From NCBI RefSeq assembly GCF_041146795.1, contig NC_135174.1, positions 24,762,878-24,826,877 on the forward strand: a stretch of 64,000 nt of DNA, given 5' to 3'. The notes beneath the pieces were generated by a model. That model saw only the letters and a list, made by a program, of their open reading frames with translations, made no database searches and was not told where the DNA came from. The translations under genes were made by a program, and so were the position numbers. The stretch is from Maylandia zebra. Taxonomy: Eukaryota; Chordata; Actinopteri; Cichliformes; Cichlidae. Shown here piece after piece: positions 33,002-63,674 of this stretch; positions within the stretch are counted from its first letter, which is position 1, and each line of letters opens with the position of its first letter.

Positions 33002-34005
33002 TTAGTTGGCAGTGTGCAGAGATGAAGCCAGCTGTTCTGCTCTCATTAGATGGGCTTTGGCTTCTTTCCTGATCACCTCCCAGGCTTCAGCACTGTGACC
33101 CTACAGAAATACCAATATTAATATTCTTATTGTTATTGAAACAAGTTATTATATCTATTTATCTTAAGGATGATCTAAACCCCAAATTAATGAGAATGAT
33201 GTGATCTTACCATTTCCTTTAGGATATGATGTGAGAGTCTCTTAAAGTACATGTGCAGCTTTGTGGTTTTCTTCTTGTGACTGTGGCTCCCAATCTAATT
33301 TAATTACAAGCAAAACGACAATTAAGAATATGTCATGTCATATAAAGTATTTGAATGTAATAAAAACCTAACTGAAAGTGAACTTACACAGGAGTGAAGC
33401 TCTTCAGCCTGTTTGTTGACAATATTGAGAAAGTTCCTCACTGTGCTGTCCTCCCATGATGCAGCGCTGTGATCCTCCTCAAACAGGGCAGCCACCTCCT
33501 CCAGAATCTGAACTGTGAAAGCCAGTTTATCCTCAGCCTAGCAGGAGAGTAATCAAATATAATTTACTCACAGGACTGTCTCTGAAAAGAAAATTACGTT
33601 TCTAAGTTAAAACTGAAGTTGGCTTACTTTAAAGAGTTGTCTGGGATATTACGGGATTAAATCAGAAAAACAGAGATTTACTTACTGATGATTTGGACAC
33701 CTGGTGGTACAGGTGATTAGGGAAGGCCACGGTGACCTCCACTTCAGTGATGTTAGTGGAATTATTAGCCTGCATCACACACAGAAGCACATGGAGTGTT
33801 TCAGTAAACAGGCACTAAATTTACGCACATTTAAATTTTTTTTTAGCATAAATATTAAAAGACGTGCACTCACCATGGTATCAAGTAGATTCAGAGTCTC
33901 TTCGTTGTGCTGTTTGAATTTATGATCCATCCATCTGCAGCTCAACGAGGAGCCTGCAGTGACCAGACCGAGAAACAGGCAAGCAAAGAAAACCCTGCTG
34001 ATCAT
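33002..34005 (-). CDS. IFN-3: type I interferon, two-cysteine (IFNd-like), intact
   Basis: Minus-strand exons: 34005-33874, 33769-33686, 33537-33388, 33294-33211 and 33100-33002, giving 182 residues. The signal peptide MISRVFFACLFLGLV... precedes C23 (SCRWMDHKF); the second cysteine is C122 (ELHSC). Exon 2 starts ANNSTNITEVEV with N-glycosylation sequons. Exon 4 is the short 28-codon form (KKKTTKLHMYFKRLSHHILKEM), shared with IFN-6A/6B and unlike the 32-codon form of IFN-1/2. The last exon has AEAWEVIRKEAK. The frame is open 38 codons upstream of this ATG, but that stretch crosses the TATA box, so 34005 is the start. An antiviral cytokine role is inferred from the family. Confidence 0.92.
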
Positions 34006-39428: not shown

Positions 39429-40374
39429 ATGATGATGTGGATATTTCCTTTGCTTGCCTGTTTCTCGCTTTGTTCACTGCAGGCTCCTCGTTGAGCTGCA
39501 AATGGATGGATCATAAATTCAGACAGCACAACGAAGAGACTCTGAATCTACTTGATACCATGGTGAGTGCACATCTTTTAATATTCAGTCTAAATATTTA
39601 AAAGTGTACTGACTGTAATTTAGTTATTTAAACGTAGTGCCTGTTAACTCAAACATGATATGTCTCTGTATGTGATGCAGGCTAATAACTACACTAACAC
39701 CACTGAAGTGGAGGTCACTGGTCTTCCCTAATCACCTGTACCGCCAGGTGTCCATATCATCAGTAAGTGAACCTCAGCTTTGACTTAATTAATTAATCAA
39801 CGTATTTATTTATTTTCAGAGACAGTCATGTGAATACATAATCTGTGATTGCTCTCCTTCCAGGCTGAGGATAAACTGGCTTTCACAGTTCAGGTTCTGG
39901 AGGAGGTGGCTGCCCTGTTTGAGGAGGATAACAGCTCTGCATCATGGGAGGACAGCACAGTGAGGAACTTTCTCAATATTGTCAACAAACAGGCCGAAGA
40001 GCTTCACTCCTGTTTAAGTTCACTTTCAGTAACACCACTACTGAGATAACTGAGATCAATTATACTGCTTACATGGCTAAAACATATATTTAAATGACCA
40101 TTTTTCCTTATTTAGATTGGGAGCCACAGTCACAAGAAGAAGAACTCACAGCTGTATTTCAAAAGACTTTCAGATGATGTCCTAAAGAAGAAGGTACGTC
40201 TTTAATGTTTTGACCAATTCTTTAATTAAACACCTCTGGCATGTTTTAATAGTGATAATGTTGTTGTGTCTGTAGGGTCACAGTGCAGAACCATGGGAGG
40301 TGATCAGGAGGTGATCATTAGCCCATCTATTAAGAGCAGAACCGCTGGCTTCATCTCTGCACACTGCCAACTAA
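39429..40374 (+). pseudogene. IFN-4: decayed type I interferon
   Basis: Five exon equivalents are recognisable: 39429-39562, 39681-39762, 39864-40013, 40116-40193 and 40276-40374. Exon 1 is out of frame between the ATG cluster and the rest of the signal peptide. Exon 2 is 2 bp short (GTCACTGGTCTTCC where paralogues have GTCACTGTGGCCTTCC). The exon 3 donor reads TTAAGT instead of GTAAGT. Exon 4 lacks 18 bp between copies of GTATTTCA. Exon 5 contains an in-frame TGA after VIRR. Intron 3 matches that of IFN-1. AATAAA is at 40528-40533. No functional protein is expected. Confidence 0.9.
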
Positions 40375-45760: not shown

Positions 45761-46348
45761 TTAGGTAAAAGAAGCAACTGAGTAATTCCAACTGTGAAAA
45801 AAATACATTGTTCGTTGTTCAAACCGAAAACATTGTGTGCTGTGTGAAAAAAGATGCCGAAAAAAGGAAAAAAAAAAAACAAACAAGTAATGCAAATTGA
45901 TGAAATGTGCAGTACCAGCTTTTATTATAAATTACACAGATTTAAGTAAGGTGGCCGTTAATGAAATCTCATTGTATTTAATTATTTTTATTTTCGGGGT
46001 GTAAACTGGCGCTAAAATCGAGATAAATATTCAAGGAAGACGTAATTTTTTTCATATCACAACTTAACTATTTCAGAAACATGTAGAGGTAGCCTAATGG
46101 GGAAAAAATCAGCTGTGAGATGTGTTTCTTGTTTTGTGTTTCACGTATTTAAGTTCATGTATTTATGTTTGGCAGGTAACTCGTAGTGACGTAAATTACT
46201 AAATTAACGAGGGTGATACCTTAGCTTGTTTAAAAACGCTGCCTATCCTCCACTGTGGAATATTTTCTTTGATTTGGATACAAATTCTAATCTGAGATTT
46301 CCGACATTACAGCCTGTTGTACGTTGAGGCCTCAACCCGCTCACCTGC

Positions 46349-46394
46349 GGGTTTCCCAGGTATGGAAAATGAAATATGTTCGCTCTGCTATAAA
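46349..46394 (+). promoter_or_regulatory. IFN-6A proximal promoter: NF-kB-like, ISRE, TATA
   Basis: GGGTTTCCC (46349-46357; GGGAAACCC on the other strand, one base short of the NF-kB consensus), GAAAATGAAA (46365-46374) and TATAAA (46389-46394) are packed into 46 bp, about 75 bp before the start codon. The order recalls the PRDII, PRDI/III and TATA arrangement of mammalian IFNB. Confidence 0.75.
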
Positions 46395-46468
46395 TGCAGC
46401 GCTGCAGGTCTGCTCCATCAGACATCCGAGAGTTTGCTTCATACAAAGGAAGTTTATACCTTTAAAAA

Positions 46469-47467
46469 ATGATGAACAGGATTCTCTTTGCTTGCCTGTT
46501 TCTCGCTCTGTCCACTGAAAGCTCCTCGCTAAGCTGCAGATGGATGGATCATAAATTCAGACAGCACAACGAAGAAACTCTGAATCTAATTGATACCATG
46601 GTGAGTGTTTAATGCTTTAATATTAGTTAATTTGTTATTTTTCGTGAAAGAATTATTTCACTTGAGCATCTGATGACTAAAACATTCAATGTGTTTCAGG
46701 CTAAAAACTCCACTAACACCACTGAAGTGGAGGTCACTGTGGCCTTCCCTAATCACCTGTACCACCAGGTGTCCAAATCATCAGTAAGTGAACCTCAGCT
46801 TTTGCCTATTTATAGAAAAAAACATAATTTTCCCTTAGGACAGATTAATTTTGTCTTTTAAATCCACTCTTATTATTATTGAAGCATTTCTAAAGTGGTC
46901 TGTATTTGATCTTCTTCTTCTTCCAGGCTGAGGATAAACTGGCTTTCACAGTTCAGATTCTGGAGGAGGTGGCTGCCCTGTTTGAGGAGGATCACAGCTC
47001 TGCATCATGGGAGGACAGCACAGTGAGGAACTTGCTCAATATTGTCAACAAACAGGCTGAAGAGCTTCACTCCTGTGTAAGTTCACTTTCAGTTAGGTTT
47101 TTATTACATTCGAATATGATACTTTACATGACATGACATATTCTTAATTGTCATTTTGCTTGTAATTAAATTAGATTGGGAGCCACAGTCACAAGAAGAA
47201 AACCACAAAGCTGCACATGTACTTTAAGAGACTCTCACATCATATCCTAAAGGAAATGGTAAGATCACATCATTCTCATTAATTTGGGTTTTAGATCAAC
47301 CTTAAAGTAAATAGATATAATAACTTGTTTCAATAACAATAAGAATATTAATATTGGTATTTCTGTAGGGTCACAGTGCTGAAGCCTGGGAGGTGATCAG
47401 GAAAGAAGCCAAAGCCCATCTAATGAGAGCAGAACAGCTGGCTTCATCTCTGCACACGGCCCAATAA
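46469..47467 (+). CDS. IFN-6A: type I interferon, two-cysteine (IFNd-like), intact
   Basis: Exons: 46469-46600, 46700-46783, 46927-47076, 47175-47258 and 47369-47467, all phase 0 with GT-AG, giving 182 residues. It starts MMNRILFACLFLALSTE with a signal peptide, then C23 (SCRWMDHKFRQ) and C122 (ELHSC). Exon 2 has NST and NTT sequons. Exon 3 is EDKLAFTVQILEEVAALFEE. Exon 5 ends HTAQ and TAA. A second ATG (46472) follows directly; either could start. The stop region reads CCAATAAAAC, so an AATAAA overlaps the stop codon. Exon 3, intron 3 and exon 4 are nearly identical to IFN-3 and IFN-6B. It is convergent with IFN-7A. A secreted antiviral cytokine role is inferred from the family. Confidence 0.92.
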
Positions 47468-47517
47468 AACCTGTCTCTTGTCATGTCTGTAATGACGGCT
47501 GTGTTCATTTAATTGCT

Positions 47518-47677
47518 TGTCTATTTATTTTATTTATTTATTTATTTATTTAGTTACTTGGTTATTTGTATATTTTTGTTTTGATTGTTTTTCTATGCTG
47601 ATGAAGATTTAGGAATATTTTTTTATCTTTATAATGAGCAAAATGAAAATTTTGTAAAATATATTTTGCCAAATAAA
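47518..47677 (+). promoter_or_regulatory. IFN-6A 3' UTR: AU-rich element and poly(A) signal
   Basis: Overlapping ATTTA pentamers at about 47522-47553 form a class II-like AU-rich element, typical of short-lived cytokine mRNAs. AATAAA at 47672-47677 with T-rich DNA after it is the likely poly(A) signal. The AATAAA overlapping the stop codon is an alternative. Confidence 0.6.
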
Positions 47678-48397
47678 AGAATCTATCTTCTTACAAAGTG
47701 AATTTATTGTTTATATTACTTTTTAATATCAAAATGGTGAACTTGTAAGTTCCTTTAACCAGATTTCGATTGCAATTAAACTAAAAAATGAAAAACAAAA
47801 CTCCACAGTGCTTGGAAGTTCACGAAAGTGGAATGAAAGTGTTCTTTAATGGGTTAAAAGGAAAGCCCATAATATAAGATGTAACTCTTCTGTCACTTAA
47901 TCAATAAATTGACACGATTAAGACAGTTATTTCATGATGAAATAAAAAAAAACGTGGGTAATGTTTTTCCAGCCTTTCTGTTTTACATTGATCCAGTTTG
48001 GGCCAAATTTTAACTGATGGCCTCACATTTGGAATATTTTGACATAGAGAGGAGTTCATGGTCTCCTCAGGGACTACAAGTTGTTCACGTCTTATGGCTG
48101 CAAAACAAGTCCTCTTGTATCTGTGCTAAAATACTTAATTTCAGATGTGGTGCTGTGAAGTTTACTTTTTGTTAAATAATTATAAATACTGTCGTCTAAG
48201 CTTCCACTTAAATTATTTTACAACCTGAAAATGACCAAATTATTTATTTATTCTTTTATTTATTTTTAATGCTCGAATATGGAAAAACTTAGAATTGAAG
48301 AAGTATGTACCATTTTTCAGTTCTTTTATGCATGATATAGGTATATTTGTATAGGCATTGTGCTCATGTACTGCATCAGTCTAACTTTTACTTTGTG

Positions 48398-48660
48398 TGG
48401 GGTGGCTGAGGCTCAGGTGGTAGAACAGATCAGCTACTGATCGGAAGGTTGGTGGTTCGATCCTTGGCTTCCCCAGTCTGGATGCCTTGGGCAAGTTGCA
48501 TTCATCGGAGTATGAATGTGTGTGAATGTAGTTTAGGTTGCACTTGAAGTGCTTGTATGAGTGGGTGTGAATGGGTGAATGAGGCATGTTGTATAGAGCG
48601 CTTTGAGTACCCCGGGAGAGTAGAAAAGTGCTATATAAGAATCAGTCCATTTACCAGATC
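48398..48660 (+). mobile_element. tRNA-derived SINE, copy A
   Basis: The head has tRNA-like promoter boxes (GGCTCAGGTGGTAGAAC, GGTTCGATCC). The tail is the common fish SINE/LINE 3' end (GCGCTTTGAGTACC, AAAAGTGCTATATAAGAATC, CCATTTACCA). Copy B at 58890 has extra bases (ATACTAACCCTGAG) that copy A lacks. Not a functional tRNA gene. Confidence 0.75.
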
Positions 48661-48661
48661 A

Positions 48662-49430
48662 GGGGTGGTACCTCTGAGGTGGCAGTTAGTCGAACCTTGG
48701 ACAATGCAGTTTACATCCTGATGGTGGAACACTGGACCAGCTCTTTATCCTCTTGAGGATACTTGAGGGTGCATGGGAGTTTGTCCAACCAGTCTACATG
48801 GGCTTTGTGGACCCGGAGAAGGCACTCGACCATGTCCGTCAGAGTGTCTTGTGGAAGGTACTTCAGGAGTATGGGCTGTTTGGCCCATTGCTATGGACCA
48901 CTCAATTCTCATACAACCATTTCAGGAGCTTGGTCCGCATAGCCAGCAATGAGCAATAAGTCAGACTGGTTTCCGGTGGGTGATGGATTCCACCAGGGCC
49001 GCCCTTGTCACCGGTTCTGTTCATAATTTGTATTTAGAGAATTTCTAGGTGTAGCCAAGTGGCAGAAGGCTCAGATGTTCTCTGAATCTCAGCTCTGCAT
49101 TTCGTATATGATGTTGTTCTATTGCCTTCATCGGCTGATGACCTCCAGCTCGCACTGGAATGCTGCACAGCCAAATGTAATGAAGTGAATGAGAATAGCA
49201 CCTCCAAATCTAAGGCCATGGTGCTCAGCCAGAAAAGGGTGGACTGTCCACTCGTGATCAGGGATGAGTTTGTGCCCCGAGTGGAGGAGTTTAAGTATCT
49301 TGGGGCCCTGTTCACGAGTGATGGGAGAAGGGAGAAGGACATTGACAGACAGATCAGTGCTGCGGCTGCTGTACTGGTCCATCAGGGTGAAGAGAGAGCT
49401 GAGTGTAAAGGCAAAGCTCTCAGTTTACTC
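48662..49430 (+). mobile_element. Non-LTR LINE reverse-transcriptase fragment, copy A
   Basis: Translated pieces are FVDPEKALDHVRQSVLWKVL (reverse-transcriptase core), a QGCPLSPVLF-like region (CAGGGCCGCCCTTGTCACCG) and the later SKAMVLSQKRVDCPLV, VEEFKYLGALFTSDGR. They run in different frames with stops between, so the enzyme is dead. It resembles the abundant fish LINEs of the CR1/L2/Rex1 group; exact clade not assigned. It fills the space between the convergent genes IFN-6A and IFN-7A. Confidence 0.75.
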
Positions 49431-49942
49431 GTCATACTTTATAAACCAAAAGAAACCAAACCAAAGAAAGTCTCTAAAGTGGTCTTGGTGCTCATACTCA
49501 CTCCACATGAGGTATCAGTACTTCTACTTTCTATGTTGTAAGAGCTTTTGTGAAGAATCAAAACAATCTTTCTATATAAATCTGGACAATGTGTCTAATG
49601 TTTGATTGCACTCATTAAAAATAAGTGCATAACCCTTATTCTTAATATTTCAGGAACAGAAAAGTCAACAATTTCAATTTGTGTGATAAGAAAATATTTA
49701 TTGACTTTAACATATCAAATAATATGTCTAGTTTACTTTATGGAAAATTTTCAGAAATCTAATAAATAAATGAATAAATAATACAAAAATAAATACTAGT
49801 GTCAATATTATGAATACAATAAATAAATTAAACCAATTAAGAAATACAAATACATTTTAAAAATTTATCCGAAAGACGAGTTTTAGTGGGCATTTCCCAG
49901 AGACTTAACCAGGGATGCGCATTGACTCAGATGGTCTTCTGT

Positions 49943-50055
49943 AAATATATTTTACAAAATTTTCATTTTGCTCATTATAAAGATAAAAAATATTCCTAAA
50001 TCTTCATCAGCATAGAAAAACAATCAAAACAAAAATATACAAATAACCAAGTAAC

Positions 50056-50086
<31 letters not shown>

Positions 50087-50215
50087 AATAAATAGACAAG
50101 CAATTAAATTAACACAGCCGTCATTACAGACATGACAAGAGACAGGTTTTATTGGGCCGTGTGCAGAGATGAAGCCAGCTGTTCTGCTCTCATTAGATGG
50201 GCTTTGGCTTCTTTC
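49943..50215 (-). repeat. Inverted copy of the IFN-6 3' end inside IFN-7A
   Basis: This tract is the complement of about 47400-47665 (IFN-6A last-exon coding end, stop, AU-rich element and 3' UTR). It replaces a few bases found in copy B at about 60465. On its left, 49880-49940 still carries the original IFN-7 exon-5 end, now outside the coding frame. The tract matches IFN-6A at GAAAGAAGCC but IFN-6B at GTGTTAATTT, so the donor may predate the duplication or have been a third copy. Confidence 0.88.
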
Positions 50216-51459
50216 CTGATCGTCTCCCAGGCTTCAGCACTGTAACCCTACAGACAAAACAATATTATCATTATTAAAATACCAGCGGTGTAAAATCTGT
50301 CATATTGAAATACAGGTTTAGTAAAAATAATGCAGACTTACATTGGCCTTTAGGATTTCATTTGAGAGACTCGTGAAATGCGTCAGCTGTGTCGTGTTGC
50401 TGTGGCTTCCAACCTAAATAACCCACAAGGAAAGAACAAAATATATTTGAATACATCATTCACCACTTTAACTTATTCACATTTGTCAGAGACTGATAAA
50501 ATATATATAATAGAGACTGAATTCATTGTAAAATTTAAAAAAAAAATGCAATATCATTGTTCATTGTAATGAAAGTGAGCTTACACAGGAGTTAAGCTCT
50601 TCAGCCATTTTGTCGACAATACTGAGAAAGTTCTCCACTGTGTTCTTCTCCCATGGTGCAGAACTGCGATCCTTCTCAACCAGGGCAAACAGCTCCTTCA
50701 GAATCTGAACTATGAAAGCCAGTTTATCCTCATCCTAGAAGAAGAAGAAGATGAAGATGAAGAAGAAGAGATCACTATAGGAATACTTCTTTAAAACTTC
50801 AAGATGAATAGTCAAAGAACAAGAATTCACACAGCTATGAGAAATTTCCCAGGGACCGAAAATCTTTGTTTGCACAGGAACAAATGTTTGAAAATAACAT
50901 TGTTGTGTTTTGTCTTTGAATTATACATTTTTATGGACAGGAGTTATGACAGAGTCGTGATAAGAGACAACTCCCTTGGCTCTGTGGGAGAGAATCCCTT
51001 TGACCCTTTCATAGCTGAACAGTCTATATATAGGTAAAGACAAACTTTTGTGGATTTGCAATCACTCCATTCTTTCATTAAAAAAGAAACAACTTTATGT
51101 AAAAAGCTGGGGATGACTTACTGTTGCTTTGGACTTCTGGTGATACAGTTGATTAGGGAAAGCCACTGTGTGCTCAATTTCAGCATCCTTAGTGGTGTTA
51201 GTAATCTGCATCACACACAAAACACGCACACACATCATATCCATGGAACTAATCAAACTATTTAAATCAATACCATGTTAAACATTATGCAAAGAAGTGC
51301 ACTCACCATCATATCAAGGAAACCCAAAGCTCTCTTGTTGTACACATGGAATTGATGTTTTATGTCGTCTCGATCATTTACAATCCATTTGCAACCTAGC
51401 AAAGAGCCCGTACTGTACATCCCGAGAAACAGGCAAGCGATGAAAATCCTGCTGATCAT
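50149..51459 (-). CDS. IFN-7A: diverged type I interferon with exchanged C-terminus
   Basis: Minus-strand exons: 51459-51307, 51205-51122, 50734-50585, 50413-50342 and 50247-50149, giving 185 residues with phase-0 GT-AG junctions. It belongs to a subgroup distinct from IFN-1/3/6: the signal peptide MISRIFIACLFLGMYSTGSL precedes C23 (GCKWIVNDRDDIKHQF), and exon 1 is 51 codons rather than 44. Exon 2 is ITNTTKDAEIEHTVAFPNQL. Exon 3 is unusually changed (ILKELFALVEKDRSSAPWEK) and exon 4 is short (24 codons, VGSHSNTTQLTHFTSLSNEI). The last exon starts GYSAEAWETIRKEAKAHL and ends HTAQ, the IFN-6 ending, acquired through the inverted tract at 49943-50215. The frame is open and splice sites are normal, but activity is uncertain. 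Confidence 0.82.
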
Positions 51460-51544
51460 TTTTGAAAAATGTAGAAATTTCCTTAGTGTGAAGCAAATTC
51501 TCAGGTCTCCTGGTGTTCTGATGGAGCAAACCTCAGGCGCTTCA

Positions 51545-51582
51545 TTTATAGCAAAGCCCAAGGACACACCTATTTCATTTTC
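51545..51582 (-). promoter_or_regulatory. IFN-7A proximal promoter (TATA and ISRE)
   Basis: On the minus strand TATAAA (51550-51545) with GAAAATGAAA (51582-51573) about 22 bp further upstream. No NF-kB-like site was seen next to them. Confidence 0.7.
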
Positions 51583-53037
51583 TAATCAGCTGGATAATCG
51601 TCTCAAAAGTAAAAACATAGCAGATTTATGTCATCCTTTTAAGATTTAATATCTGTTCTTTCATTTATAGAGAGTGCAAGATTTCGTTTTCTAACTCTAT
51701 CAAGTAGAAACTAGAAAAACGTGAACCAGAAAAAAGATTTGTCATTATTTTTTTTAGCTTGTGTTTGTGTTTTTTTTTTGTTGTTGTTGTTGTTTTATGA
51801 TAATTGTGTCATATAAAGACAGTGTTGTACAAAAATTGGCTATGATATAACAAAAACTGAGGCAGCAGCACCATGAGATGACGTCAAGTTACCACATAAA
51901 AGCATAAAAACACAAATCTCCACCTCTATGTCAATCTCTTAATACTTGCGATTAACATGAAACCTTTAGGCGATTTTAAAGTAAACGTAGAACAACAGTC
52001 GTTTAATTAGTTTAATTAGTTTAATTAGTTCAATTAGTTTAAATGTAATTTAATTACTGTCAAGTAAAAGTTTATTTATCCAAAATCTGTTTTTACTTCT
52101 TGATTTTAATCTTGGAAAATTGAAGATAGGAGATTTACAGCAATGTTTTTCAGGGAGTCTTTACTTTCTTGGCAGTTTGCAAGACATTAAGGTAGCTAAA
52201 ATTTAAAAAAAAAAATAGTTTTAGTTTTTTAACCTTCAGCTGGTTTCAAGTAAACCTCGGATAATGGTCGTTTAATATATGTGTATTTTAATTACCGTCA
52301 TGTAAAAGTATATTCATCTCAATTCTTTCTTACATTATTTTATCTTGGAAAATTGAAGGTTGGAGATTTACAGTAATTATTTTCAGGCAGTAGTATTCAC
52401 CTTCTTTGCGGGTTGCAAGCAGTAGCGGTTTTTGATATCAGCATCGTGGTGGGGGGCGGATTCACGGGCATCGGCAAATATAAATAAATAAATAAATTGC
52501 TCGTACTCATGCTGCCCAGACATCAGCCAGCGCGTATTGGGAATGGCATAGGCACCATCGGTTTTCTATCGCCCATTTGCTGGGAGTAAGGGCGCCCTCC
52601 GTTTGCGAGGTGCGCCTGCTTCTTGTGGCACAGGGAGGAGAGGGCGGGGCGGCGGGGGATTCTTTGGCTGGTTGGATAGCATCTAATAATCAACTCGCAA
52701 AATAAAACAATAAAAAAACCAACAAACACCAAACACGAGACATCATGATACTGACTTAGAATTTGCACCGATGTTTTTTCGAAATTCTATACGCGAAAAG
52801 TGAGCGCGAGAGCCCTCGGTGCGCCTGCTTGCTGCTGAAGTCAAAGTAAACTTTATTGTCATCTCCGCTATATACAGTCCAGTATATAGGGAGACGAAAC
52901 GCCGAGCCTCCAGTTACAGCAGTGCAAGTAAACGAACAACAAATATAAGAAGAGTAAGAAAATAAATACACACTTTAGGACTCGGGGTAAAGGGATCAAT
53001 AACAACTTAAAATTTATAATTTACAGTTTGATGATCT

Positions 53038-54212
53038 GTCTGTGAAGGTTCTCAGTCATCCAGGTCATCGTAGTCAAAGGAGCTTGCAAAGAAAAGCGTC
53101 TGGACTTCTTTAAGTTACTTGAAGACGTTTCACCTCTCATCCGAGAAGCTTCTTCAGTTCTAAGGTCAAATGGTGGAGAGTCCCAGATATAAACCCCCCA
53201 CAGAGGGACAAAAGGACCCCCTGATGATCCTCTAATCGCCTGAGCCAAGGTGGGAAACTGGGTGTGGGTCCCAATCAGCCAGAGTTTCGGGTGAGTTCAT
53301 TGTGAAACCTGGCCCCACCTTATCATGCGAATTCCTGAGGTCAGATGGCCCAGGATGTGAGTGGGCGTTAAGGCGTCTGGGAAGGGATCTCAAAACTGGA
53401 TTATAGATGGCAGAGAGTTGGTGTCGTAAACCACCGCCTCTGTTCAAAGATGGTCGCTCACAGTGGACATAGATGGCTTCTTTCACTCCTCTTTCAAACC
53501 ATCTGTCTTCTCTGTCCAAAATGTGAACATTGGCATCCTCGAAAGAGTGTCCTTTATCCCTAAGATGCAGATGGACTGCTGAGTCTTGTCCTGTGGAGGT
53601 GGCTCTTCTGTGTTGTACCATGCGCTTGTGAAGTGGCTGTTTGGTCTCTCCAATGTAGAGGTCTGGGCATTCCTCGCTGCACTGTACAGCATACACCACA
53701 TTGTTAAGTCTGTGTTTTGGCGTTTTGTCTTTCGGGTGAACCAGTTTTTGTCTGAGCGTGTTGCTGGGTCTGAAATACACTGGGATGTCGTGCTTGGAGA
53801 AAACTCTCCTGAGTTTTTCTGATACACCGGCTACATAGGGGATGACAATGTTGTTGCGTCTGTCTTTCTTATCCTCCCTCGCTGGTGTCTGATCTTCTTT
53901 TCTGTGCCTCTTTGCTGACTTTAAGAACGCCCAGTTAGGATAGCCGCACGTTTTGAGTGCTTCCTTTACATGTGTGTGTTCCTTCTTTTTTCCTTCAGGC
54001 TTAGAGGGAACATGTTCTGCCCGGTGGTGTAGGGTCCTAATTACTCCAAGTTTGTGTTCCAGAGGGTGATGGGAGTCGAACAGGAGGTACTGGTCCGTGT
54101 GTGTGGGCTTCTGGTAAACTTCGATGTTGAGGTTGCCATTCTCTTCAATGTGCACAGCGCAGTCCAGGAAAGGCAAACAGTTATCCTTTGTGTCTTCCCT
54201 GGTGAACTTTGA
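53038..54212 (-). mobile_element. Penelope-like element with GIY-YIG endonuclease frame
   Basis: The minus-strand frame 54176-53232 (314 codons) begins inside the reverse-transcriptase C-terminal part (FLDCAVHIEENGNLNIEVYQ). It then has a Cys-containing GIY-YIG nuclease motif (VVYAVQCSEECPDLYIGETK), followed by HLRDKGHSFEDANVHILDRE. AGTTTGATGATCT flanks both sides (53025-53037 and 54213-54225), read as a target duplication. The element is 5' truncated to about 1.2 kb, with the surviving frame open. It is nested in the hAT element. Confidence 0.88.
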
Positions 54213-56812: not shown

Positions 56813-56836
56813 GACATTACAGCTTGTTGTACCTGC

Positions 56837-56884
56837 GGGTTTCCCAGGTATATAGAAAATGAAATATTTTCGCTCTGCTATAAA
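56837..56884 (+). promoter_or_regulatory. IFN-6B proximal promoter: NF-kB-like, ISRE, TATA
   Basis: GGGTTTCCC (56837-56845), GAAAATGAAA (56855-56864) and TATAAA (56879-56884), in the same order and nearly the same spacing as IFN-6A. Confidence 0.75.
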
Positions 56885-56968
56885 TGCGGCGCTGCAGGTC
56901 TGCTCCATCAGAACACCGGGAGACATCCGAGTTTGCTTCATACAAAGGAAGTTTATACCTTTAAAAAA

Positions 56969-57970
56969 ATGATGAACAGGATTCTCTTTGCTTGCCTGTT
57001 TCTCACTCTGTCCACTGAAAGCTCCTCGCTAAGCTGCAGATGGATGGATCATAAATTCAGACAGCACAACGAAGAAACTCTGAATCTGCTTGATACCATG
57101 GTGAGTGTTTTAATGTTTTAATATTAGTTGATTCGTTATTTAAATAGTTTTAGAATTATTTCACTTGAGCATCTGATGACTAAAACATTCAATGTGTTGC
57201 AGGCTAAAAACGCCAGTAACACCACTGAAGTGGAGGTCACTGTGGCCTTCCCTAATCACCTGTACCACCAGGTGTCCAAATCATCAGTAAGTGGACCTCA
57301 GCTTTTGCCTATTTATAGAAAAAAACATAATTTTCCCTTAGGACAGATTAATTTTGTCTTTTAAATCCACTCTTATTATTATTGAAGCATTTCTAAAGTG
57401 GTCTGTATTTGATCTTCTTCTTCTTCCAGGCTGAGGATAAACTGGCTTTCACAGTTCAGATTCTGGAGGAGGTGGCTGCCCTGTTTGAGGAGGATCACAG
57501 CTCTGCATCATGGGAGGACAGCACAGTGAGGAACTTGCTCAATATTGTCAACAAACAGGCTGAAGAGCTTCACTCCTGTGTAAGTTCACTTTCAGTTAGG
57601 TTTTTATTACATTCGAATATGATACTTTACATGACATGACATATTCTTAATTGTCATTTTGCTTGTAATTAAATTAGATTGGGAGCCACAGTCACAAGAA
57701 GAAAACCACAAAGCTGCACATGTACTTTAAGAGACTCTCACATCATATCCTAAAGGAAATGGTAAGATCACATCATTCTCATTAATTTGGGGTTTAGATC
57801 ATCCTTAAGATAAATAGATATAATAACTTGTTTCAATAACAATAAGAATACTAATATTGGTATTTCTGTAGGGTCACAGTGCTGAAGCCTGGGAGGTGAT
57901 CAGGAAAGAAACCAAAGCCCATCTAATGAGAGCAGAACAGCTGGCTTCATCTCTGCACACGGCCCAATAA
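56969..57970 (+). CDS. IFN-6B: type I interferon, two-cysteine (IFNd-like), intact
   Basis: Exons: 56969-57100, 57203-57286, 57430-57579, 57678-57761 and 57872-57970, giving 182 residues. It is the duplicate of IFN-6A with five residue differences by my reading: Ala to Thr in the signal peptide (FLTLSTE), Ile to Leu before DTM, Ser-Thr to Ala-Ser in the first sequon (NAS for NST, still glycosylatable), and Ala to Thr in RKETK. C23 and C122 are kept. Exons 3 and 4 appear identical in protein sequence. The AATAAA overlapping the stop codon is also present. Both copies look functional, so they could differ only in dosage. Confidence 0.92.
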
Positions 57971-58019
57971 AACCTGTCTCTTGTCATGTCTGTAATGACG
58001 GCTGTGTTAATTTAATTGC

Positions 58020-58180
58020 TTGTCTATTTATTTTATTTATTTATTTATTTATTTAGTTACTTGGTTATTTGTATATTTTTGTTTTGATTGTTTTTCTATG
58101 CTGATGAAGATTTAGGAATATTTTTTTATCTTTATAATGAGCAAAATGAAAATTTTGTAAAATATATTTTACCAAATAAA
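58020..58180 (+). promoter_or_regulatory. IFN-6B 3' UTR: AU-rich element and poly(A) signal
   Basis: Overlapping ATTTA units at about 58025-58056 and AATAAA at 58175-58180, equivalent to IFN-6A. Confidence 0.6.
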
Positions 58181-58889
58181 AGAGTCTATCTTCTTACAAA
58201 GTGAATTTATTGTTTATATTACTTTTTAATATCAAAATGGTGAACTTGTAAGTTCCTTTAACCAGATTTCGATTGCAATTAAACTAAAAAATGAAAAACA
58301 AAACTCCACAGTGCTTGGAAGTTCACGAAAGTGGAATGAAAGTGTTCTTTAATGGGTTAAAAGGAAAGCCCATAATATAAGATGTAACTCTTCTGTCACT
58401 TAATCAATAAATTGACACGATTAAGACAGTTATTTCATGATGAAATAAACAAAAACGTGGGTAATGTTTTTCCAGCCTTTCTGTTTTACATTGATCCAGT
58501 TTGGGCCAAATTTTAACTGATGGCCTCACATTTGGAATATTTTGACATAGAGAGGAGTTCATGGTCTACTCAGGGACTACAAGTTGTTCACGTCTTATGG
58601 CTGCAAAACAAGTCCTCTTGTATCTGTGCTAAAATACTTAATTTCAGATGTGGTGTTGTGAAGTTTACTTTTTGTTAAATAATTATAAATACTGTCGTCT
58701 AAGCTTCCACTTAAATTATTTTACAACCTGAAAATGACCAAATTATTTATTTATTCTTTTATTTATTTTTAATGCTCGAATATGGAAAAACTTAGAATTG
58801 AAGAAGTATGTACCATTTTTCAGTTCTTTTATGCATGATATAGGTATATTTGTATAGGCATTGTGCTCATGTACTGCATCATCACCCCA

Positions 58890-59163
58890 CTTTGTGTGGG
58901 GTGGCTGAGGCTCAGGTGGTAGAACAGATCAGCTACTGATCGGAAGGTTGGTGGTTCGATCCTTGGCTTCCCCAGTCTGGATGCCTTGGGCAAGATACTA
59001 ACCCTGAGTTGCATTCATCGGAGTATGAATGTGTGTGAATGTAGTTTAGGTTGCACTTGAAGTGCTTGTATGAGTGGGTGTGAATGGGTGAATGAGGCAT
59101 GTTGTATAGAGCGCTTTGAGTACCCCGGGAGAGTAGAAAAGTGCTATATAAGAATCAGTCCAT
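58890..59163 (+). mobile_element. tRNA-derived SINE, copy B
   Basis: Duplicate of 48398-48660 and slightly more complete (GGGCAAGATACTAACCCTGA is kept). It has the same A-box and B-box-like head and CTATATAAGAATCAGTCC tail. Confidence 0.75.
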
Positions 59164-59164
59164 T

Positions 59165-59943
59165 TACCAGATCAGGGGTGGTACCTCTGAGGTGGCAGTT
59201 AGTCGAACCTTGGACAATGCAGTTTACATCCTGATGGTGGAACACTGGACCAGCTCTTTATCCTCTTGAGGATACTTGAGGGTGCTTGGGAGTTTGTCCA
59301 GCCAGTCTACATGGGCTTTGTGGACCCGGAGAAGGCACTCGACCATGTCCGTCAGAGTGTCTTGTGGAAGGTACTTCAGGAGTATGGGCTGTTTGGCCCA
59401 TTGCTATGGACCACTCAATTCTCATACAACCATTTCAGGAGCTTGGTCCGCATAGCCAGCAATGAGCAATAAGTCAGACTGGTTTCCGGTGGGTGATGGT
59501 TTCCACCAGGGCCGCCCTTGTCACCGGTTCTGTTCATAATTTGTATTTAGAGAATTTCTAGGTGTAGCCAAGTGGCAGAAGGCTCAGATGTTCTCTGAAT
59601 CTCAGCTCTGCATTTCGTATATGATGTTGTTCTATTGCCTTCATCGGCTGATGACCTCCAGCTCGCACTGGAATGCTGCACAGCCAAATGTAATGAAGTA
59701 AATAAGAATAGCACCTCCAAATCTAAGGCCATGGTGCTCAGCCAGAAAAGGGTGGACTGTCCACTCGTGATCAGGGATGAGTTTGTGCCCCGAGTGGAGG
59801 AGTTTAAGTATCTTGGGGTCCTGTTCACGAGTGATGGGAGAAGGGGGAAGGACATTGACAGACAGATCAGTGCTGCGGCTGCTGTACTGGTCCATCAGGG
59901 TGAAGAGAGAGCTGAGTGTAAAGGCAAAGCTCTCAGTTTACTC
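59165..59943 (+). mobile_element. Non-LTR LINE reverse-transcriptase fragment, copy B
   Basis: Duplicate of 48662-49430, with the same FVDPEKALDHVRQSVLWKVL and VEEFKYLGVLFTSDGR pieces and the same interruptions. The insertion and its decay therefore predate the tandem duplication. Confidence 0.75.
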
Positions 59944-60404
59944 GTCATACTTTATAAACCAAAAGAAACCAAACCAAAGAAAGTCTCTAAAGTGGTCTTG
60001 GTGCTCATACTCACTCCACATGAGGTATCAGTACTTCTACTTTCTATGTTATAAGAGCTTTTGTGAAGAATCAAAACAATCTTTCTATATAAATCTGGAC
60101 AATGTGTCTAATGTTTGATTGCACTCATTAAAAATAAGTGCATAACCCTTATTCTTAATATTTCAGGAACAGAAAAGTCAACAATTTCAATTTGTGTGAT
60201 AAGAAAATATTTATTGACTTTAACATATCAAATAATATGTCTAGTTTATTTTATGGAAAATGTTCAGAAATCTAATAAATAAATGAATAAATAATACACA
60301 AATACTAAAAATAAATAATAGTGTCAATATTATGAATACAATAAATAAATTAAACCAATTAAGAAATACAAATACATTTTAAAAATTTATCCGAAAGACG
60401 AGTT

Positions 60405-61716
60405 TTAGTGGGCATTTCCCAGAGAGTTAACCAGGAATGCGCATTGACTCAGATGATCTTCTGTTATGTTCCTGATCGTCTCCCAGGCTTCAGCACTGTA
60501 ACCCTACAGACAAAACAATATTATCATTATTAAAATACCAGCGGTGTAAAATCTGTCATAGCTAAATACTAAATACAGGCTCAGTAAAAAAAAATAATGC
60601 CGGCTTACATTTTTCTTTAGGATTTCATTTGAGAGTCTCTTGAAATACATTTCTGTCCGCCGTTGCACCTTCTGTGTCGTGTAACTGTGGCTTCCAATCT
60701 AAATAAATCAAGAGAAATAAAACAAAATATATTTAAATAAATCATTCACCACTTTAACTTATTCACAGTTGTCAGGTCTTTTACACAAGAGAGACTGAAT
60801 TCATTGTAAAATTACAAAAACAAATGAAAGTGAACTTACACAAGAGCGAAGCTCTTCAGCCTGTTTGTTCACAATATTGAGAAAGTTCTCCACTGTGTTC
60901 TCCTCCCATGAGGCAGAGCTGTGATCCTCCTCAAACAGGGCAGCCACCTCCTCCAGAATCTGAACTATGAAAGCCAGTTTATCCTCATCCTAGAAGAAGA
61001 AGAAGACGAAGATGAAGAAGAAGAGATCATACTTCTTTAAAACTTCAAGATGGCTGAATAGTCAAAGAACAAGAATCCACACAGCTATGAGAAATTTCCC
61101 AGGGACCGAAAATCTTTGTTTGCACAGGAACAAATGTTTGAAAATAACATTGTTGTGTTTTGTCTTTGAATTATACATTTTTATGCACAGGAGTTATGAC
61201 AGAGTCGTGATAAGAGACAACTCCCTTGGCTCTGTGGGAGAGAATCCCTTTGACCCTTTCATAGCTGAACAGTCTATATATAGGTAAAGACAAACTTTTG
61301 TGGATTTGCAATCACGACACTTTCCATTCTTTCATTAAAAAAGAAACAACTTTATGTAAAAAGCTGGGGATGACTTACTGTTGCTTTGGACTTCTGGTGA
61401 TACAGTTGATTAGGGAAAGCCACTGTGTGCTCAATTTCAGCATCCTTAGTGGTGTTAGTAATCTGCATCACACACAAAACACGCACACACATCATATCCA
61501 TGGAACTAATCAAACTATATAAATCAATACCATGTTAAACATTATGCAAAGAAGTGCACTCACCATCATATCAAGGAAACCCAAAGCTCTGTTGTTGTAC
61601 ACATGGAATTGATGTTTTATGTCGTCTTGATCTTTTACAATCCATTTGCAACCTAGCAAAGAGCCCGTACTGTACATCCCGAGAAACAGGCAAGCGATGA
61701 AAATCCTGCTGATCAT
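60405..61716 (-). CDS. IFN-7B: diverged type I interferon with native C-terminus
   Basis: Minus-strand exons: 61716-61564, 61462-61379, 60989-60840, 60698-60609 and 60503-60405, giving 191 residues, phase 0, GT-AG. The signal peptide MISRIFIACLFLGMYSTGSL precedes C23 (GCKWIVKDQDDIKHQF). Exon 3 (EDKLAFIVQILEEVAALFEE ... AEELRSC) is closer to IFN-1/6 than to its own duplicate IFN-7A. Exon 4 is 30 codons. The last exon, GYSAEAWETIRNITEDHLSQ CAFLVNSLGNAH, differs from every other interferon here. It has a third mature cysteine (C180) and an NIT sequon. This is taken as the native form of the IFN-7 subgroup. The number of cysteines does not fit the simple two- or four-cysteine classes. Confidence 0.85.
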
Positions 61717-61801
61717 TTTTGAAAAATGTAGAAATTTCCTTAGTGTGAAGCAAATTCTCAGGTCTCCTGGTGTTCTGATGGAGCAAACCTCAGGCGCTTC
61801 A

Positions 61802-61839
61802 TTTATAGCAAAGCCCAAGGACACACCTATTTCATTTTC
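61802..61839 (-). promoter_or_regulatory. IFN-7B proximal promoter (TATA and ISRE)
   Basis: On the minus strand TATAAA (61807-61802) and GAAAATGAAA (61839-61830), identical in layout to IFN-7A. Confidence 0.7.
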
Positions 61840-63163
61840 TAATCAGCTGGATAATCGTCTCAAAAGTAAAAACATAGCAGATTTATGTCATCCTTTTAAG
61901 ATTTAATATCTGTTCTTTCATTTATAGAGAGTGCAAGATTTCGTTTTCTAACTCTATCAAGTAGAAACTAGAAAAACGTGAACCAGAAAAAAGATTTATG
62001 TCATTATTTTTTTTAGCTTGTGTTTGTGGGTTTTTTGTTGTTGTTGTTGTTTTATGATAATTGTGTCATATAAAGACAGTGTTGTACAAAAATTGGCTAT
62101 GATATAACAAAAACTGAGGCAGCAGCACCATGAGATGACGTCAAGTTACCACATAAAAGCATAAAAACACAAATCTCCACCTCTATGTCAATCTCTTAAT
62201 ACTTGCGATTAACATGAAACCTTTAGGCGATTTTAAAGTAAACGTAGAACAACAGTCGTTTAATTAGTTTAATTAGTTTAAATGTAATTTAATTACCGTC
62301 AAGTAAAAGTTTATTTATCCAAAATCTGTTTTTACTTCTTGATTTTAATCTTGGAAAATTGAAGATAGGAGATTTACAGCAATGTTTTTCAGGGAGTCTT
62401 TACTTTCTTGGCAGTTTGCAAGACATTAATGTAGCTAAAATAAAAAAAATAAAAATTAGTTTTAGTTTTTTAACCTTCAGCTGGTTTCAAGTAAACCTCG
62501 GATAATGGTCGTTTAATATATGTGTATTTTAATTACCGTCATGTAAAAGTATATTCATCTCAATTCTTTCTTACATTATTTTATCTTGGAAAATTGAAGG
62601 TTGGAGATTTACAGTAATTATTTTCAGGCAGTAGTATTCACCTTCTTTGCGGGTTGCAAGCAGTAGCGGTTTTTGATATCAGCATCGTGGTGGGGGGCGG
62701 ATTGCTGGGAGTAAGGGCGCCCTCCGTTTGCGAGGTGCGCCTGCTTCTTGTGGCACAGGGAGGAGAGGGCGGGGCGGCGGGGGATTCTTTGGCTGGTTGG
62801 ATAGCATCTAATAACCAACTCGCAAAAATAAAACAATAAAAAAACCAACAAACACCAAACACGAGACATCATGATACTGACTTAGAATTTGCACCGATGT
62901 TTTTTCGAAATTCTATACGCGAAAAGTGAGCGCGAGAGCCCTCGGTGCGCCTGCTTGCTGCTGAAGTCAAAGTAAACTTTATTGTCATCTCCGCTATATA
63001 CAGTCCAGTATATAGGGAGACGAAACGCCGAGCCTCCAGTTACAGCAGTGCAAGTAAACGAACAACAAATATAAGAAGAGTAAGAAAATAAATACACACT
63101 TTAGGACTCGGGGTAAAGGGATCAATAACAATTTAAAATTTATAATTTACAGTTTGATGATCT

Positions 63164-63674
63164 GTCTGTGAAGGTTCTCAGTCATCCAGGTCATCGTAGT
63201 CAAAGGAGCTTGCAAAGAAAAGCGTCTGGACTTCTTTAAGTTACTTGAAGACGTTTCACCTCTCATCCGAGAAGCTTCTTCAGTTCTAAGGTCAAATGGT
63301 GGAGAGTCCCAGATATTAGTGGGAGTATCCGCCCACAGAGGGACAAAAGGACCCCCTGATGATCCTCTAATCGTCTGAGCCAAGGTGTGAAACTGGGTGT
63401 GGGTCCCAATCAGCCAGAGTTTCGGGTGAGTTCATTGTGAAACCTGGCCGTAAACCACCGCCTCTGTTCAAAGATGGTCGCTCACAGTGAACATATATGG
63501 CTTCTTTCACTCCTCTTTCAAACCATCTGTCCTCTCTGTCCAAAATGTGAACATTGGCATCCTCGAAAGAGTGTCCTTTATCCTTAAGATGCAGATGGAC
63601 TGCTGAGTCTTGTCCTGTGGAGGTGGCTCTTCTGTGTTGTGCCATGCGCTTGTGAAGTGGCTGTTTGGTCTCTC
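63164..63674 (-). mobile_element. Penelope-like element, copy B, broken
   Basis: Begins after AGTTTGATGATCT (63151-63163), as in copy A. It retains the 3' end and part of the nuclease region (GHSFEDANVHILDREDRWFE). It is shorter and more broken than copy A; its far end is replaced by unrelated DNA (63675-63830). Confidence 0.8.

Follow-up and report, generated by a model that had tools for sequence, protein, structure and literature searches.

Fish type I interferon (IFN) genes are composed of five exons. Group I fish interferons are described as having two conserved cysteines in the mature protein (PMC5013148) and as signaling through CRFB1/CRFB5 (PMC8980424). Ectopic gene conversion among clustered paralogs of type I IFN genes has been reported in cattle (PMC2680415) and pig (PMC4221479). 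A further type of recombination is described as being begun by homology and, after a tract has been copied, ended by joining to the second end through microhomology (PMC5104497). The locus considered here lies in a window of 64,000 nucleotides of Maylandia zebra DNA (contig NC_135174.1), in which the gene IFN-7A carries the end of a different paralog, IFN-6. IFN gene conversion is already known, and a natural hybrid by one-sided copying from an inverted neighbor is an instructive fresh example. This hybrid is not described in the titles and abstract openings of the open-license PMC papers listed for interferon gene conversion or cichlid or teleost IFN, nor is it the subject of the excerpted text of PMC8831618.

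An IFN-7 gene with an IFN-6 end

The region is a tandem array in which copy A occupies about 46343-53314 and copy B 56831-63449, and copy C lies beyond the window, at 66476-72082 in coordinates continued past 64000. Every copy has IFN-6 on the plus strand and IFN-7 on the minus strand in a convergent arrangement, and IFN-6A and IFN-7A are inverted relative to each other at a distance of 2.3 kb. A remnant that by eye resembles a non-LTR retroelement is located between the IFN-6 and IFN-7 genes of copy A (48650-49470) and of copy B (59170-59990).

IFN-7A (50149-51459, minus strand) has five exons (51459-51307, 51205-51122, 50734-50585, 50413-50342, and 50247-50149) with four phase-compatible GT-AG introns, and its frame is open over 185 codons. 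The spliced protein is 100% identical to the RefSeq protein "interferon a3-like [Maylandia zebra]" (P0001), which comes from the same assembly as the window and is not independent proof of the hybrid. Exon 5 (50149-50247, including the stop codon) is open and consists of a native head (50247-50213) and an IFN-6-derived end (50212-50149); it reads GYSAEAWETIR and then KEAKAHLMRAEQLASSLHTAQ before the stop, and the last 21 residues of the 185-aa protein are of the IFN-6 type. Exon 5 of the comparison copy, IFN-7B (60405-61716, minus strand; native exon 5 at 60503-60405), shares the GYSAEAWETIR start but ends with ETIRNITEDHLSQCAFLVNSLGNAH and a stop codon.

The exon end belongs to a transferred tract of 270 bp of inverted IFN-6 sequence (49943-50212, minus strand), which comprises the end of exon 5, the stop codon, and the first part of the 3' UTR with an AU-rich run. 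By self-BLAST and junction comparison, the tract matches 47404-47666 (plus strand) in IFN-6A, the likely donor (46469-47467, plus strand; exons 46469-46600, 46700-46783, 46927-47076, 47175-47258, and 47369-47467). In the self-BLAST of the window, 47349-47666 aligns with 50267-49943 in inverted orientation with 95.1% identity over 326 columns (E value of 3e-143), and 49943-50276 aligns with 58169-57843 with 94.3% identity. The first donor-only base is 50212, the last donor base is 49943, and the sequence is native again from 49942; four native bases (CATA) of exon 5 are gone at the insert, and the net gain is 266 bp. The displaced native end of exon 5 (49880-49942, minus strand), now part of the 3' UTR, reads TEDHLSQCASLVKSLGNAH with no stop before its own. 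By parts, exons 1 and 2 of IFN-7A are 98 to 100% identical to those of IFN-7B, and the exon 5 tail is 100% identical to IFN-6A versus 76 to 77% to IFN-7B and IFN-7C; that is, separate parts of one open frame are closest to separate paralogs, IFN-7 and IFN-6.

An earlier note on this DNA had proposed that the C terminus of IFN-7A came from an inverted IFN-6, that the frame stayed open through the exchange, and that the native exon end was left behind the insert. The self-BLAST matches, the junctions, and the sister copies without the insert bear out the first proposal, the 185 codons with GT-AG introns agree with the second, and the remnant at 49942-49880 agrees with the third; the alignment of the breakpoints placed the tract edges at 50212 and 49943, with 4 native bases lost. 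The hybrid is confirmed as real in this assembly, derived, and well delimited.

The predicted protein and transcript

IFN-7A matches the interferon domain PF00143 with 70 bits and IFN-7B with 80.4 bits, compared with a curated Pfam cutoff of 26.8. C23 and C129 are invariant in 28 aligned proteins and are both kept in IFN-7A, which on this alignment has the cysteine pair of group I. The hybrid has lost C180 and the sequon at N171 (7B numbering), as the earlier note had stated; both losses stand, but C180 lies outside the two cysteines that define group I, and its candidacy as a defining group I cysteine is rejected in favor of the aligned pair. The new tail is of the common IFNd type, which was found by pattern in 61 of 132 listed proteins, a set that combines two listings (72 proteins and the best 120 of 160 found). 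In AlphaFold2 models, the C-terminal part is a single long helix in both P0001 (157-179) and the native-tailed P0002 (157-183). The best P0001 model has a mean pLDDT of 82.7, with values of 71.2, 55.5, 50.0, and 48.5 for the other four, and its final stretch is a single predicted helix, with block pLDDT values of 94 to 95 across residues 161-180. The predicted fold lends moderate support to the hybrid.

Among PDB entries, the best sequence match of IFN-7A is Larimichthys crocea IFNd (8irq; E value of 2.6e-43, residues 33-183), which is also the best fold match, with a TM score of 0.84 by target length and 0.69 by query length. The two proteins are alike in the cysteine pair and the tail, whereas IFN-7A follows the cichlid IFN-7 kind in its N-terminal part and in its short exon 4. 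His165 of grass carp IFNa has been placed at the contact with the IFNAR2-type receptor (PMC8980424). Position 170, which is nearly invariant, is still a histidine in the hybrid and may, on our reading of the alignment, correspond to His165. A bactericidal cationic C-terminal peptide is reported for a group II fish IFN (PMC13411935). The tail charge of the hybrid (K+R-D-E) is +1, versus -2 in IFN-7B, and no case was made for such a tail in the hybrid, since the native tails of H. burtoni and tilapia are also +1.

In the three-copy alignment, the native part of the IFN-7A 3' UTR (49702-49942, minus strand) comprises the displaced exon end, native AU-rich sequence, and an AATAAA, the first sense base of which is 49702 (hexamer 49702-49697) and which is present in copies A, B, and C. 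The event is an insertion, because the transferred tract stops a few bases before the AATAAA of IFN-6 (47672). The new stop codon is followed by IFN-6 AU-rich sequence, the native remnant, the native AU-rich UTR, and the AATAAA at 49702, and an IFN-7A mRNA would carry these parts in the same order, with the native poly(A) signal last. The AUUUA motif occurs 17 times in 499 nt in IFN-7A, 6 times in 235 nt in IFN-7B, and 9 times in 300 nt in IFN-6A, the lengths after the stop being unequal. The view that the 3' UTR came from IFN-6 holds for its first part, with the AU-rich run, but the native 3' UTR still lies behind it and the whole is composite rather than exchanged; exchange of the whole 3' UTR is rejected, since the native UTR and AATAAA remain behind the insert. 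In the same way, an AU-rich IFN-6 run was added, as had been claimed, but the AU-rich character is not new, the native UTR being AU-rich already. An AATAAA spans the stop codon in IFN-6A, -6B, -6C, and -7A and not in the other six genes compared. At 47464-47469 and 50152-50147, it is a possible early poly(A) site, and cleavage there could drop all AU-rich elements.

We infer that IFN-7A would be transcribed and folded, would signal through the group I receptor pair, and would be under stronger or dual control of mRNA decay, and that a repair route such as that set out below gave rise to it. The event may instead be real and without consequence, with IFN-7A redundant or being lost. The many near-identical IFN copies and the neighboring gene G4, with its stop in exon 5, speak for this, and it is a tenable, if less than probable, alternative. 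On the other side, the start, splice sites, frame, and domain of IFN-7A are intact and its new tail agrees with the consensus of the family, though none of these features is proof of use.

Junctions, donor, and direction of change

At the upstream junction, the native AC of GAGACGATC is kept and is followed by IFN-6 sequence, with the switch inside nine shared bases, GATCAGGAA. The exon 5 heads of IFN-7A and IFN-6A agree at 33 of 36 bases (92%). At the downstream junction, the IFN-6 UTR breaks off at TATATTT and native exon 5 takes over at ACAGAAG; the two share 0 to 2 nt of microhomology, the exact figure varying with the count of the T run. One homologous end together with one end of microhomology or short addition is the pattern of noncanonical termination of homologous recombination (HR), and because one end here is homologous and the other is nearly nonhomologous, this pathway may well lie behind the IFN-7A junctions. 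A break or stalled fork in exon 5 of IFN-7A would have brought in the convergent inverted IFN-6 as a template, with strand invasion or pairing at the shared 36-bp exon 5 head. About 270 nt would then have been copied from IFN-6, and end joining would have closed the new end onto native exon 5, with 0 to 2 nt of microhomology and a loss of 4 bp. The product would be an intact group I interferon frame with a last-helix end of the IFN-6/IFNd type. The downstream junction is too short to separate end joining from microhomology template switching, and the template-switch route that the earlier note had drawn from the convergent IFN-6/IFN-7 arrangement is consistent with the junctions. IFN-7A is probably a hybrid type I interferon gene of recent origin that arose by copying from an inverted neighbor and end joining.

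Ordinary two-ended ectopic gene conversion between inverted paralogs has a parallel in the same cluster, where G3 contains an inverted tract with homology at both ends. Beyond the IFN-7A tract, however, the sequence is native rather than IFN-6, and the 266-bp net gain is joined there by at most 2 shared bases; the homology at both ends that classical gene conversion entails was absent downstream (0 to 2 shared bases), and we regard this origin as unlikely.

In the aligned insert, the hybrid shows 1 substitution relative to IFN-6A, 1 relative to IFN-6B (56969-57970, plus strand), which was compared as a second possible donor, and 13 relative to IFN-6C, which is rejected as the donor. At the IFN-6A difference, IFN-6A stands alone, and IFN-6B, IFN-6C, and the hybrid agree; at the IFN-6B difference, the hybrid and IFN-6A have G versus A in IFN-6B and IFN-6C. 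The TTTA repeat of the hybrid is 8 bases longer than that of all three IFN-6 copies, and its T run is one T shorter than in IFN-6A and IFN-6B. On the two distinguishing sites, the donor would be IFN-6A or IFN-6B, and IFN-6A before its own change, which is also the neighbor, is the simplest candidate. Copies A and B have 55 differences in 3,596 aligned bases of the flank 46343-49942 (1.5%), and on these small numbers the transfer may postdate the A/B duplication.

Misjoins arise easily among near-identical tandem copies, and IFN-6 reads might have been joined into IFN-7A during assembly. The tract is not letter-perfect IFN-6A, -6B, or -6C, given its 8 additional TTTA-repeat bases and the T missing relative to IFN-6A and IFN-6B, the frame is kept, and both junctions lie in one exon with 4 bases lost, all of which makes an assembly artifact improbable. 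Retroposition of the 3' end of an IFN-6 mRNA, which the retroelement-like remnant seen by eye between the two genes might bring to mind, is very improbable: the insert ends with AAAATATATTT, before the IFN-6 AATAAA and without poly(A), and the join lies inside the homologous exon head. A retroposed copy is rejected, as the 3' end of the insert, AAATTTTGTAAAATATATTT, has no poly(A) tract.

IFN-7B and IFN-7C have no insert and have the native exon 5 end in the alignment of the three copies. The native IFN-7 tail is present in 19 of 132 homologous proteins among the matches listed, from seven cichlid genera (Haplochromis, Astatotilapia, Neolamprologus, Simochromis, Sarotherodon, Oreochromis, and Maylandia), and a tilapia homolog has it. 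In H. burtoni, P0002 shares 87% identity with IFN-7A and follows the 7A type as far as the end of exon 4, and its terminal sequence is NITKEHLRRCGSLVESLGNAH. The 25 listed proteins with an IFN-7-type exon 1 or 2 include 16 with the native tail, 2 whose tail is of the IFN-6 type (P0001 and P0005, an H. burtoni model), and 7 with neither, which are taken for truncated or misjoined models. P0005, a RefSeq model, has IFN-7-type exons 1 to 3 and IFN-6-type exons 4 and 5, joined at exon 3/4; the Ensembl-type H. burtoni models P0066, P0068, and P0072 have the same exons 2 and 3 and a native end. P0005 may be either a second hybrid or a gene-model error. GYSAEAWE.IRKE was matched by 2 of the 132 listed proteins, P0001 and P0102 from the frogfish Antennarius; P0102 is absent from the 25 proteins matched in a search with hybrid residues 140-185 and is taken for a typical IFNd from a distantly related fish. 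Among the proteins listed, the hybrid joined within exon 5 occurs in one species only, in a set clustered at 90% identity, which could mask its presence in closely related species.

The hybrid end is the newer state and copy A the derived one, because IFN-7B, IFN-7C, H. burtoni P0002, tilapia, and other cichlid homologs keep the native end, and the earlier designation of copy A as the altered copy is upheld by IFN-7C without the insert and by the native tails in cichlid homologs. If P0002 is the true counterpart, the hybrid would have arisen after the split from H. burtoni. That copy B is the altered one, as the mosaic makeup of IFN-7B might suggest, is hardly credible and is rejected: the native tail is found in IFN-7C, H. 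burtoni, tilapia, and other cichlid homologs, and a copy of it still lies behind the insert in A.

Mosaic neighbors and comparison with known systems

In IFN-7B, exons 1 and 2 are of the 7A kind (98 to 100%) and exons 3 to 5 are of the 7C kind (94 to 100%). G3 (33002-34005, minus strand) is 96 to 100% IFN-6-like in inverted orientation from exon 3 to the exon 5 head and 78 to 95% elsewhere, and a 570-bp stretch from exon 3 to just beyond the stop is 96% identical to inverted IFN-6. In G2, exon 3 and intron 3 are 99 to 100% identical to IFN-6, the segment limits of G1, G2, and G4 being approximate. G4 (39443-40374, plus strand) has a stop inside exon 5 (IRR*S) and is probably a pseudogene. An orphan IFN exon 5 (GHSAETLEVIRNETKGHLVRADKLVSSLHSA) lies at 36829-36731 (minus strand), and the predicted A. 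calliptera protein P0003 has IFN-7-type exons joined to this ending. Intron 2 of IFN-7C has about 600 extra bases with a CA repeat (70470-70980 in continued coordinates, beyond the window), and the exon 3 acceptor region of IFN-7C is unlike those of IFN-7A and IFN-7B. On these identity values, the hybrid would be the youngest and clearest instance of a mosaic habit in this cluster.

It is a doubtful idea that convergent interferon genes are a standing exchange device for last-exon cassettes, comprising the end of helix F, the stop codon, and the AU-rich element, that pass repeatedly between inverted neighbors. If it were true, a single step could yield new ligands whose receptor contacts and mRNA half-life are both changed, and these could vary between cichlid species, and the inverted repeat, spaced by 2.3 kb, could also yield self dsRNA upon read-through. 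If such swaps recur, whole-protein trees of interferon subfamilies would mislead. The locus offers a clean and recent natural example of a cytokine gene remodeled from an inverted neighbor, in which the donor, the two breakpoints, the native sequence that was displaced, and sister copies left unaltered are found within about 30 kb. Such a natural hybrid could separate the contributions of the last helix and the 3' UTR to fish interferon, and cichlid species and populations can be genotyped for it.

As in the mammalian conversions, clustered type I IFN paralogs exchange sequence at this locus, and in pig, the exchanges are reported to include coding and 3' parts (PMC4221479). Palindromic IFN gene sets are described in cattle (PMC2680415). 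The tracts in cattle and pig are described as homologous replacements or large duplications, and a word search of the text of the two papers does not find the word "inverted" (PMC2680415, PMC4221479). In contrast, the IFN-7A tract has one end without real homology, the native sequence is displaced, and the protein end changes subtype. Noncanonical HR termination as described in PMC5104497 is alike in its start by homology, its copied tract, and its end by microhomology. It was described in a mammalian reporter with kilobase tracts from the sister chromatid, whereas IFN-7A involves about 270 nt from an inverted neighbor, in the course of evolution, in a fish.
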